Origin: Methanomassiliicoccus sp.
GTDB lineage: Archaea > Thermoplasmatota > Thermoplasmata > Methanomassiliicoccales > Methanomassiliicoccaceae
Reading direction: 5' to 3'
DNA: 64,000 nucleotides
NCBI GenBank assembly: GCA_012719175.1
Contig: JAAYAX010000005.1
Span: 248,001 to 312,000 of the forward strand
The notes under the pieces were generated by a model. It was not told the DNA's origin, searched no databases, and saw nothing but the letters and a program-made list of their open reading frames with translations. Positions 34,016-37,320 of the stretch are shown piece after piece (position 1 is the first letter of the stretch; every line of letters starts with the position of its first letter). Position numbers and translations under genes: made by a program.

Positions 34016-36178
34016 TCGCATCCCCTTGTCCCGCTCCCGCAGGCGCTCGATGTTCCATCCGAAGGGGGAGAGGAGCTCGGCGGCGCCGCGGAGGCTGAGG
34101 TCCACATAGCGCTCGGCGTCGTACCTCTCATCGCCGTCCAGGAAGGGGGCGACCCTGACCCTCTGCCACGAGCTCCTGCTGGCGGAGTCCATGATGAGGT
34201 ACTCCACCGCCTGCCCGGGCTGTAGCTCGAAGCCCTGGTCGTGCAGCTGCTGCAGCGCGGCCACCGAGTCGTTGTACTGCACATACTCCTCCAGGCGCCG
34301 GGAGATGCTCTTCCTCATTATCAGGCGCGCCCTCTCCACGGTCCCGGAGCGCACCTCCTCGACGTAGCGATCCAGTACCTCCAAGGAGGAAGGTACCAGC
34401 TCCAGGAACGCGCTCCGGTCGGCGGCAACGGAGAGGTGGCGGAGCATGTCCTGCTGGAGGTCCTCCACCAGCAGGGGCGTGTCCTTGCGCCGCACCGCGA
34501 TCCCCCGGAGCTTCAGTTCCCCGTCCTCGAACTTCCCGTAGTAGCGGTTCAACGCACCCACCCCCGTGGATATGTTGGGCAGGAAGACGATCCAGGCGTA
34601 CCGCCCTTCCAGGTTGAGAGGTATGCCCATCTCCCGGGTGATCTCCTCGCAGTAGGACGCCACGTCGCCGTCCCCCCGCAGCCACAGCGAGTCCACGATC
34701 CCATGCAGCACATCGAAGCCGCGCCTCTCCGCAAGGTCTGCAGACCGCACCAGGATGTCCCTCCCGAAGGCGGTGATGGACTCATGGCACTCGATCCTTC
34801 CGAAACGTGCGTTCCTGTATCCAGTGTAGCCGAAGCAGGTGACCAGCACCCACTTGAGGGCCTTGGCCCGCTGCTCGTACATCTCCCCCTTACGCCCGCC
34901 CTGACCCTTGATCTGCTTATACACCCGCCGGCGGTTGAGGATGGGGACCAGCACCTTGGGGACCAGTCCCTGCCGCTTCTCGCAGATGTGGTACCCCAGC
35001 TCCGGCACCGTCCTCGAGGAGCGGGAGCAGCAGGGACACATCACCGTCTCCGGGGAGATGTTATGCCGCACCATGATGCTGGGGTACAGGGAGAAGAAGT
35101 CCACCTCCCACACCTGGTCATGCACTCCCACCTTGGGCTCGTAGATGAACCCCCCGCGGTCCGAGACTATCAACGCCCCGGCGGTCTTGAAGTCCTCGGG
35201 GAGGTTCTTCTTCCACAGCACCACGTGCCCGCTGCGCACGGCCTCATTCACCTGCATGGCGCTTATGGCGCTGCCCGGGGAGAGGCGGGAAAGGTCCTGC
35301 AGAGGTATCATGGAAAGGCGCGACATCTCGATCAGCCCGTGCAGGCCGCTCTCCCGGAAGGTGAAGGAGGACTCGCGGTCGATGTGCACCCGGCCGCGTA
35401 ACTTGTGGCCAGGGGGCTTGTACACGATGCGGCCGTAGGTGAAGAAGCTCTTCCCCCGGGAGGTCCTCTCCCCCCTCTCGCGCCCCAGCTCCAGGGTGAC
35501 GTCGTTAACCTGCGCCCGGTGGTGAAGATAGGGGAGGTAGAAGCTGTCCCCCTTGGAGGTGTAGATGATGTCCGGGTCCTGCTCCCTCATCAAGGATTGC
35601 AGGTCTATGATGATCCCGTCCTCAGGTCCGTCGAGGACCACGTCACCGACCTCCACCGAGGCGATGGGATCATCTAAGGTAGGGATCCCCGCTCCCTCGG
35701 TCCGGACCTTCAGCTCCGCCGAGGTCAGCGCAGGGATGGGGTAGTCGAGGCGCAGGTTCGAGTCCAGGCTGTGCAGGGAGGGGAGCTCCACCAGACCCAT
35801 GGCGAAGATCCCCTTGGCCAAGAAGTAGCGCTGGTCCATCCTCAGGTCCACGTTGTACAAGAGGTGGTCGCGGTAGCCTCCCCAGGAGTCGATGGTCACG
35901 GCCAGGGGCTGTATGGCCGCGTAGTCCCGCACCGCCACCGAGAGCACCTCCCGTTCCTCTCCGCCCAGCTCCGTCCGGCGGCGCACCAACGATACATCCT
36001 TCACCCCCAGGAGGGCAAGGTCCCGTGTCAGCTTCTCCAGCCTGTCCCTGGAGGCGAGCACGTAGATGCGGGGTATGAAATCCTCGACCACACGTTCCAC
36101 CCCTCGGTTGGTCCACACCCAGGTGACCATGCGGTTCTCGGCCATGTCCGCATAGCAGTCCAGGACCCATCCTCTCAC
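33971..36178 (-). CDS. polB: Divergent family-B DNA polymerase, PolB2 (Dpo2)-like
   Basis: The 735-residue polymerase keeps motif A (VDFFSLYPSIM, metal-binding Asp360) and a motif B-like helix (LKWVLVTCFGYTGYRNARFG, 441-460). In motif C the canonical GDTDS reads GIVDS (493-497), so the first Asp is lost but the metal-binding Asp496 remains. The exonuclease is eroded: the Exo I D-x-E is not recognisable, Exo II reads GDSFYLPYL with Tyr where Asp is expected, and Exo III lacks its Asp. It is shorter than replicative PolB (about 780 or more). It is the last gene of a tight three-gene operon with a small helical protein and a RecA-fold protein, the arrangement I recall for PolB2. Translesion synthesis is the likely role. 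The 3' end overlaps the TctA-like gene by 45 bases. Confidence 0.85.
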   Translation of the reverse strand: MRGWVLDCYADMAENRMVTWVWTNRGVERVVEDFIPRIYVLASRDRLEKLTRDLALLGVKDVSLVRRRTELGGEEREVLSVAVRDYAAIQPLAVTIDSWGGYRDHLLYNVDLRMDQRYFLAKGIFAMGLVELPSLHSLDSNLRLDYPIPALTSAELKVRTEGAGIPTLDDPIASVEVGDVVLDGPEDGIIIDLQSLMREQDPDIIYTSKGDSFYLPYLHHRAQVNDVTLELGRERGERTSRGKSFFTYGRIVYKPPGHKLRGRVHIDRESSFTFRESGLHGLIEMSRLSMIPLQDLSRLSPGSAISAMQVNEAVRSGHVVLWKKNLPEDFKTAGALIVSDRGGFIYEPKVGVHDQVWEVDFFSLYPSIMVRHNISPETVMCPCCSRSSRTVPELGYHICEKRQGLVPKVLVPILNRRRVYKQIKGQGGRKGEMYEQRAKALKWVLVTCFGYTGYRNARFGRIECHESITAFGRDILVRSADLAERRGFDVLHGIVDSLWLRGDGDVASYCEEITREMGIPLNLEGRYAWIVFLPNISTGVGALNRYYGKFEDGELKLRGIAVRRKDTPLLVEDLQQDMLRHLSVAADRSAFLELVPSSLEVLDRYVEEVRSGTVERARLIMRKSISRRLEEYVQYNDSVAALQQLHDQGFELQPGQAVEYLIMDSASRSSWQRVRVAPFLDGDERYDAERYVDLSLRGAAELLSPFGWNIERLRERDKGMRSKHRQESCVQARQI

Positions 36179-36414
36179 CCCTTCCCCCCCAGCCTCCGGA
36201 TCTCCTTCTCCTGCTCCAGGAGTATGGACAGGAGAGCGCCCTCCACGGGGTCGGAGAAGGCCGCATAGGTGGAGGCCGAGGCATGCGCCCGCGCCCGGTT
36301 GACCATGTGATCGAACACTTCCCGGTCCTCCTTGGGTAGCGCCCTGCGGAAATCGCTCCAGCTGTTGATGATCGATTCCAGGGTCATCCGGTAGGTGGGC
36401 ACCGTCCTTCCCAT
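36175..36414 (-). CDS. Small helical protein of the polB cassette
   Basis: The 79-residue protein is predicted all-helical (TLESIINSWSDFRRAL, REVFDHMVNRARAHAS, PVEGALLSILLEQEKEIRRL), with no catalytic motif. It lies between the RecA-fold gene (one base gap) and polB (ATGA overlap), so it is certainly co-translated with them. By analogy with the three-gene PolB2 cassette of Sulfolobales, it could bridge the polymerase and the RecA-like partner. That is inference from position. Confidence 0.78.
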   Translation of the reverse strand: MGRTVPTYRMTLESIINSWSDFRRALPKEDREVFDHMVNRARAHASASTYAAFSDPVEGALLSILLEQEKEIRRLGGKG

Positions 36415-36415
36415 G

Positions 36416-37153
36416 TCACCGCCTCAAGAACTCTTCCAAGGTGGTCTGGTTATGCGGCACGGCATGGTAGTACATGGTCTCCTGGCGGTTGGGCAGGGTT
36501 ATGCGCAGGCAGCGGGAGGCGTTCTCGATGCGCACGATGTCGTCCGCCATGCCGTACAGGAGGTTCTTCAGGCTTTTCCTCTGAAGTATCTTCATCAGGC
36601 CGTAGTTGGTGATCAGCGTGGCCACCCCGCGGTCGTGCGAGAGGTCCCGCAGGCGCTCCACGCACCGCCTTATCAGCTGGTACGATTCGGACCACCGCAT
36701 CTCCTTGTCCTGGAACATGTCCGGAAGGCAGGACACGATCACCATGCCGGCCCCGGTGCGCCTCACCTCTTCCTCCAAACGCTCGTCGATAAGGGATACC
36801 AGTTGGTAGGCGGTGAACGCCCGGGCCACGCTGATGCTGTCCAGCACCTCGGTGCGGTCCAGGCCGAAGCGCCTGCATATCCTCCCCAGCTCGTAGGGGT
36901 TCACGGAGTTGCCCCCGTCCACCCACACCACATCCTGGCCCAGGGTGCTGACCCCGTTAACGCACAGGATATGGGTCAGGTCGAAGAGCATGCGATCAGA
37001 GGAGTCCAGAAGGGTCATGCTACCAGGCCTCAGGCCCCCGAAGAAGGCGTCCAGGGTGGGAATGGAGGTGCGGACGGTCCGCTCCCCGTGCATCGTCAGC
37101 TCCCGCTGCGGCGCAATGGCCAGCGAGTCCGCTTCCCTGGTCGATAGGCTCAT
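36416..37153 (-). CDS. RecA-fold protein lacking Walker A (polB cassette, ImuA-like role suggested)
   Basis: The 245-residue protein has the RAD55/RecA entry VRTSIPTLDAFFGGLRPGSMTLLD (about 27-50), but where Walker A should follow it reads SSDRMLFDLTHI, with no Gly-Lys-Thr/Ser. The Walker B position is GAGMVIVSCLPDMF without the usual Asp at its end. A LITNYGLM strand and a C-terminal ENASRCLRITLPNR beta pair complete the fold. It is therefore probably an inactive RecA paralogue. It heads the operon with the 79-residue protein and divergent PolB. This mirrors bacterial ImuA, a degenerate RecA that partners error-prone polymerases. Confidence 0.8.
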   Translation of the reverse strand: MSLSTREADSLAIAPQRELTMHGERTVRTSIPTLDAFFGGLRPGSMTLLDSSDRMLFDLTHILCVNGVSTLGQDVVWVDGGNSVNPYELGRICRRFGLDRTEVLDSISVARAFTAYQLVSLIDERLEEEVRRTGAGMVIVSCLPDMFQDKEMRWSESYQLIRRCVERLRDLSHDRGVATLITNYGLMKILQRKSLKNLLYGMADDIVRIENASRCLRITLPNRQETMYYHAVPHNQTTLEEFLRR

Positions 37154-37320
37154 ACTCTCCTATCCGGCATTCGACCCGCGGATTATATGAACCTGAGAGG
37201 GAGAGTTGCCCGAAAGTAGCCCTTCGTTTCCAGTGGGCTGGGCGTTAAAAATCGCGCCGCAAGCCGCGCCGGACGTCCATGCGACGGTCTCTAAGACCGC
37301 TCACGTCGCGCCTGGGCGGG
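37154..37320. other. Intergenic segment with GC-rich hairpins
   Basis: The segment between the polB cassette and a small minus-strand gene holds a stem around 37282-37310: GCGAC pairing with GTCGC outside and GGTC pairing with GACC around TCTAA inside. On the minus strand GC-rich sequence is followed by ATTTTTAA at 37246-37253, so it may be the terminator of the small gene upstream. It does not fold as a tRNA. The cassette promoter should lie near 37165-37200 (TATATGAA-like on the plus strand at 37183-37190), but no strong TATA box is visible on the minus strand. Confidence 0.35.

Follow-up and report, generated by a model that had tools for sequence, protein, structure and literature searches.

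A three-gene operon, iRadA–PPB2–PolB2, found in a window of 64,000 nucleotides (the whole stretch of DNA that was analyzed), was identified as the PolB2 mutasome, that is, a described family in a new host, a Methanomassiliicoccus-like methanogen, and the published three-subunit translesion polymerase is thereby confirmed in and extended to such methanogens. The new element lies in the promoter of the iRadA operon, which carries a short box common to the main DNA-repair genes; in sequence this box looks like the damage switch of distant archaea. This promoter result weighs more than the protein identity, and it is the part that a specialist would want to test.

iRadA Retains the RadA Fold and Has Lost the ATPase Site

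The first gene and its altered nucleotide site are located as follows.

36416..37153, minus strand: iRadA, a RadA/Rad51-fold protein without an ATPase site, 245 aa (profile, alignment, model and homologues)
36971..37003, minus strand: SSDRMLFDLTH, replacing the Walker A P-loop, residues 51–61 (no G-x4-GK[ST] in any homologue)

The iRadA open reading frame is genuine, lies on the minus strand and starts with the ATG at 37153, while the 250-aa plus-strand ORF covering it is an antisense shadow and not a separate gene. Residues 27–50 read VRTSIPTLDAFFGGLRPGSMTLLD, and SSDRMLFDLTH follows at the place expected for G-x4-GK[TS]; the sequence-only reading had correctly located both this RecA-type motif and the segment that replaces the P-loop. 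The Pfam Rad51 model matched with an E-value of 4e-10, above the model cut-off, and only from residue 39 onward, indicating that the RadA N-terminal helical domain is missing. Searched by sequence against solved structures, iRadA matched DMC1, RAD51, and RadA (phmmer against DMC1, 2e-7). The AlphaFold2 model had a pLDDT of 85.7 and a pTM of 0.83, with residues 1–22 disordered (pLDDT <50), and its top Foldseek matches were DMC1/RAD51/RadA (E about 1e-14, probability 1.00), the RadA–FHTA and BRCA2–DMC1 complexes being among the matches. The modeled fold is RecA-like, as had been proposed.

The earlier claim of a lost ATPase site was right about the P-loop and incomplete, as alignment to DMC1 revealed VDGGN in place of IDTEN, with loss of the catalytic Glu, and MVIVSC in place of LLIIDS, with loss of the Walker B Asp. 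No Walker A pattern was found anywhere in about 95 iRadA homologues from Thermoplasmatota, ANME-1, and Bathyarchaeota, which rules out a relict or relocated P-loop and speaks against the nucleotide site elsewhere that could have overturned the earlier claim. In these homologues the former P-loop position varies freely between lineages, in contrast to VDGGN and RAFTAYQ, which hardly vary. The invariant residues are W-x-D-G-G, L104, and RAFTAxQ, together with D79-G80-G81 and D149/E156. The first three align to the RAD51/DMC1 stretch with the FxxA pocket, away from the ATP site, the pocket being the one known from RAD51–BRC4. That iRadA is a nucleotide-sensing switch, binding nucleotide at a relocated non-Walker site, could draw on D79-G80-G81 and D149/E156, which are invariant and have no proven role; given that a P-loop is found nowhere, that the Glu and the Walker B Asp are lost, and that the P-loop position is freely variable, this is extremely improbable.

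Compared with three relatives, iRadA had dN/dS values of 0.08–0.19, a purifying selection shared by PPB2 and PolB2, which rules out a decaying pseudogene. The own genome carries a separate normal RadA (495.7 bits), so that iRadA is not the recombinase; further, weaker RadA matches were found besides. By alignment and structure model, iRadA is a RadA/Rad51-family protein that has kept the fold and lost the ATPase site.

PolB2 Carries an FxxA-Type Motif and an Altered Motif C

The 79-residue protein and the PolB polymerase that the sequence-only reading had seen beside iRadA are both present.

36175..36414, minus strand: PPB2 (arCOG07300-type), small partner, 79 aa, starting MGRTVPTYR (sequence, alignment, and an MGRT arm as in PMC11791011)
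33971..36178, minus strand: PolB2, 735-aa DNA polymerase of family B, with IVD for DTD in motif C (motifs, context and fold)
35180..35191, minus strand: PolB2 FKTA (FxxA-type), residues 330–333, followed by the SDRGG (D[K/R]) motif (alignment across archaea)
34691..34699, minus strand: Ile-Val-Asp as motif C of PolB2, with another residue for the first catalytic Asp (alignment)

The operon has the order iRadA–PPB2–PolB2, with iRadA first, and neighboring genes overlap or lie 1 nt apart, the end of PPB2 (36414..36175) overlapping the start of PolB2. The closest fold to the PolB2 model was archaeal PolB; NCBIfam PolB models matched below their cut-offs, and the PolB2 label comes from motifs and context. 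Linkage of an inactive RadA, arCOG07300, and PolB2 was described in 2014 (Makarova et al., PMC4104785), and inactivation together with a link to origin proteins was proposed there. In line with that proposal, PolB2 and iRadA could both be catalytically dead, and the operon a replication or recombination regulator that blocks or marks stalled forks. The IVD motif C and the degenerate exonuclease of PolB2 suit such a regulator; however, motifs A (DFxSLYPS) and B (KWxLVTCFGYTGYRNARFG) are strongly conserved, and Dpo2 of Sulfolobus, with the same first Asp of motif C missing, is an active extender needed for targeted mutagenesis (PMC8764526, PMC7390963), which leaves the dead regulator very unlikely. 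That our PolB2 would be active with one catalytic Asp missing is an extrapolation from the Sulfolobus enzyme.

The PEDFKTA...SDRGG segment is kept in PolB2 across Thermoplasmatota, ANME-1, and Bathyarchaeota. Its FxxA part varies as F/W/L-K-x-A/G, and [F/W/L]Kx[A/G] followed by DRGG was found in nearly all PolB2, with Gly for Ala in some Bathyarchaeota and Leu at the first position in one lineage. When PolB2 was modeled alone, residues 328–334 and 337–339 had pLDDT <50, a low confidence of the isolated FKTA loop that is expected of a motif ordering on its partner. FKTA resembles the Rad51 FxxA polymerization/BRC motif, and such a role would fit the polymerization pocket region conserved in iRadA. 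The 2025 paper describes the segment as a beta-alpha oligomerization-like motif and does not use the term FxxA (PMC11791011), so the explicit FxxA reading is ours.

The Triad Is Conserved Across Archaea

The order, assigned as Methanomassiliicoccales by named relatives, was surveyed in 147 genomes for clear iRadA (E <= 1e-20), and 42 carried one. All 31 loci of the order that were examined (4.7–11.5 kb) kept the triad in the same order and on the same strand, most with start/stop overlaps. The triad was also present in most named archaeal loci on long enough contigs from Thermoplasmatota, ANME-1/Methanophagales, and Bathyarchaeota. Extra sequence separated iRadA from PPB2 in L041, L042, L043, L047, L048, and L049; the inserts of L041 and L049 encode a common Cys-rich protein family, and that of L043 carries, by eye, a UspA-like and a flavodoxin-like ORF.

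A candidate PCNA-binding motif lies near the iRadA C-terminus.

36428..36448, minus strand: PCNA-binding-type (PIP) motif QTTLEEF, iRadA residues 236–242 (conservation)

PIP motifs are short, a caveat that applies to QTTLEEF, and a PIP motif on iRadA is a described family feature (PMC11791011). The form Q..L..[FY] is kept at the C-terminus of almost every full-length iRadA examined from Methanomassiliicoccales and in most Thermoplasmatota, while Bathyarchaeota iRadA mostly lack a C-terminal motif of this form. In L051–L055 the PolB2 C-termini show a PIP-like motif (such as QDRLRDF) with iRadA also having one, a combination reported to be rare (PMC11791011).

In L056, L057, L059, and L060, all of one genus in family f5, and in L131, iRadA is only about 190–210 aa, with the C-terminal strands and the PIP motif gone, and in the same loci the PolB2 FKTA is changed to FKTL or FKSV. 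By alignment, shortening of iRadA and loss of FKTA are a correlated change, seen in one clade only. No compensating PIP motif was found in the aligned PolB2 sequences where iRadA had lost its own. This joint change, together with the strict linkage of iRadA to PolB2/PPB2, bears on whether iRadA instead modulates filaments of the true RadA as a Rad51 paralogue would, capping or blocking them at damage, with the PolB2 operon incidental. The conserved pocket region would allow it and radA belongs to the same predicted regulon (see below); yet published models place PolB2 at the pocket and score PolB2 with active RadA poorly (PMC11791011), and with the linkage and the joint change this makes a RadA modulator unlikely.

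DNA Polymerases of iRadA-Bearing Genomes

Two PolB genes are present in the own genome, which is 99.6% complete, and a PF00817 search of it gave no Y-family polymerase. The same search found none in the 42 iRadA-bearing Methanomassiliicoccales genomes (0/42), while Y-family polymerases occurred in 25 genomes of the order, all of family f5 and all without iRadA; as these presences are clustered by clade, the distribution is a pattern and not a test on independent samples. PolB2 is known in vitro as an extender, and mutasome genomes lacking a Y-family polymerase offer a clean setting for the question of whether it can insert opposite lesions as well. The main PolB, outside the window (G000 C14:51445-53898; L172, L174), lies within an open frame of 1366 codons whose PF00136 match is split by about 1.3 kb, possibly by an intein.

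A Conserved Box Precedes the TATA Element of the Operon

Two elements were recognized upstream of iRadA.

37200..37217, minus strand: promoter box ACTTTCGGGCAACTCTCC, core ANTTTC at 37212-37217 (upstream alignments and scans)
37182..37189, minus strand: TATA-like CATATAAT, with the first base of the box 28 nt upstream of it (upstream alignments)

Aligned iRadA upstream regions share a conserved block that ends in the TATA box and has the core ANTTTC[A/G] on the coding strand. This core was present in 41 of the 42 upstream regions of the order, where shuffling gave on average 10.7 regions with ANTTTC and 3.8 with the longer form. YANTTTCR was present in 38/42 vs. a shuffle mean of 2.4, and in 40 of 62 upstream regions from other archaea (mean 4.4). 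The reverse complement occurred in the upstream regions at chance level only.

A strict form, the box with a TATA-like W4 from 29 nt after its first base, was scanned over 774,424 strand-bases of 32 loci and gave 35 sites, 30 at iRadA promoters and five directly upstream of PPB2. The iRadA promoters had served to define the pattern, which makes the 30 sites partly circular; no such circularity affects the five PPB2 sites or the lack of sites elsewhere. The five lie 65–70 nt before the PPB2 start in L041, L042, L043, L047, and L049, where PPB2–PolB2 is split from iRadA. In the sixth split locus, L048 (gap 324 nt), no strict-form site precedes PPB2. A chance promoter motif is ruled out by the shuffles, the locus-wide scarcity of the box, and an orc2 control given below.

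Proposed Mechanism of the PolB2 Mutasome

As a whole, the operon is very probably explained by a PolB2 mutasome in which iRadA is docked on PolB2 via FKTA, a PIP motif leads to PCNA, and the box confers damage induction. The operon would thus encode a multi-subunit translesion DNA polymerase. Its iRadA would be a RadA paralogue in which ATP binding was lost while the pocket for gripping another RadA subunit was retained; PolB2 FKTA would enter this pocket and hold iRadA on the polymerase in the way that RadA subunits hold one another; a PPB2 trimer would reach, close to the DNA, between PolB2 and iRadA with its MGRT arm; the QTTLEEF tail of iRadA would bind PCNA, bringing the polymerase to stalled forks; and DNA damage probably switches the operon on through the ANTTTC box. 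The published model is a heteropentamer with a trimeric PPB2, in which PolB2 binds iRadA in the RadA–RadA manner, the MGRT arm lies between them, and iRadA carries PCNA motifs (Timinskas 2025, PMC11791011). In Sulfolobus, Dpo2 is induced by damage, actively extends mismatches, and gives rise to damage-targeted mutations (PMC8764526, PMC7390963), and NQO induces three genes of its locus, SiRe_0614-0616, about 20-fold (PMC10470591). The fold, the three lost ATPase elements, the triad, the conserved FKTA, MGRT, and PIP motifs, and the conserved promoter box were observed in the present analysis. Complex geometry, extender activity, and damage induction (in Sulfolobus) are taken from published models of, or experiments on, relatives, and for the present organism we infer the binding events, PCNA recruitment, and damage induction.

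The operon resembles the Sulfolobus Dpo2 operon and the published mutasome in its three genes, with an inactive RadA and a small MGRT protein, and in the altered PolB2 motif C, the D(K/R) motif, and the PIP motif at the iRadA C-terminus. It differs from the published mutasome in a host without a Y-family polymerase, in the FxxA reading, and in the promoter box and its spacing. The scaffold or recruiter role for the neighboring polymerase, suggested from sequence at the outset, is the best-supported reading and agrees with the published view of iRadA (PMC4104785, PMC11791011). The ImuA pattern invoked with it holds as an analogy, the actual family being iRadA of the PolB2 mutasome: as in ImuA-ImuB-DnaE2, a RecA-like accessory protein that has no role as a normal recombinase stands beside a mutagenic polymerase, whereas that system is bacterial with another polymerase family, and iRadA is linked to PolB2/PPB2. 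The nearer functional parallel is E. coli Pol V (UmuD'2C-RecA), in which UmuC binds RecA, a RecA-family protein docking there on a translesion polymerase via an oligomerization-type motif; in contrast, that RecA is an active ATPase shared with recombination, the polymerase is Y-family, and the small subunits are different.

The Box Also Precedes radA and RPA and Resembles the Sulfolobales Damage Element

Of 29 non-f5 genomes, 28 carried a relaxed form of the box at a constant position ahead of radA, and 26/32 carried it ahead of RPA. The f5 genomes had it less regularly (radA 10/20, RPA 9/18), some with tandem copies, and it was absent before orc2 (0/12). The background rate was about one per 20 kb of strand, nearly all at mutasome promoters. 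In the own genome, box matches were found at radA, an RPA-like protein, an Lhr-like helicase, a GyrI-like protein, two TnpB-like genes, and a 73-aa ORF. A genome-wide regulon defined by the strict pattern was rejected, as it gave five perfect sites only, and 21 sites with one mismatch vs. 15 in a reversed-pattern control. Because the one-mismatch list is mostly noise, only the radA and RPA sites, which have orthologue support, are claimed. Presence of Orc2 was discarded as a predictor of the box, since an Orc2-like gene occurs in 134 of the 147 genomes, nearly universally in the order, including genomes without the box at radA/RPA.

In Sulfolobales, ANTTTC, written A(N)TTTC, is the damage element required at UV-induced promoters, in a paper that makes no mention of Euryarchaeota (PMC5817253), and Orc1-2 leaves a footprint on it (PMC9738581). 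We found no literature report of an ANTTTC box outside Sulfolobales, which is not proof of absence. The box described here is the same hexamer, lies likewise upstream of TATA, and precedes a damage-polymerase operon and repair genes. The Sulfolobus element lies beside the BRE, at -44 to -39 relative to the start site (PMC5817253), while the first base of the present box is about 28 nt upstream of TATA, farther away by roughly one helical turn. With no more than five bases of the hexamer fixed, and with a TATA distance unlike that in Sulfolobus, common descent of its regulator with that of Sulfolobales is a hypothesis.

Taken jointly, ANTTTC may be an ancient archaeal 'SOS box' upstream of TATA, and in Methanomassiliicoccales the PolB2 mutasome, RadA, RPA, and perhaps an Lhr-type helicase would make up a damage regulon; the box at the PolB2 operon would extend to other Thermoplasmatota and Bathyarchaeota, its regulator would recognize the Sulfolobales Orc1-2 hexamer, and the mutasome would be the only dedicated translesion polymerase of these methanogens. 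We give this combined reading about an even chance. For the transcriptional damage response of archaea outside Sulfolobales, a rare, position-fixed box before the mutasome, radA, and RPA makes a concrete and cheap test.

Two minor observations concern box copies elsewhere. The radA upstream regions of the f5 relatives L303, L313, and L317 carry tandem ACTTTCGG at a spacing of about 9–10 nt. The TnpB-like genes at G000 C11:72910 and C11:15365 (L222, L239) apparently lie behind the promoter box in this single genome, and such transposon genes could be tied to the damage response.
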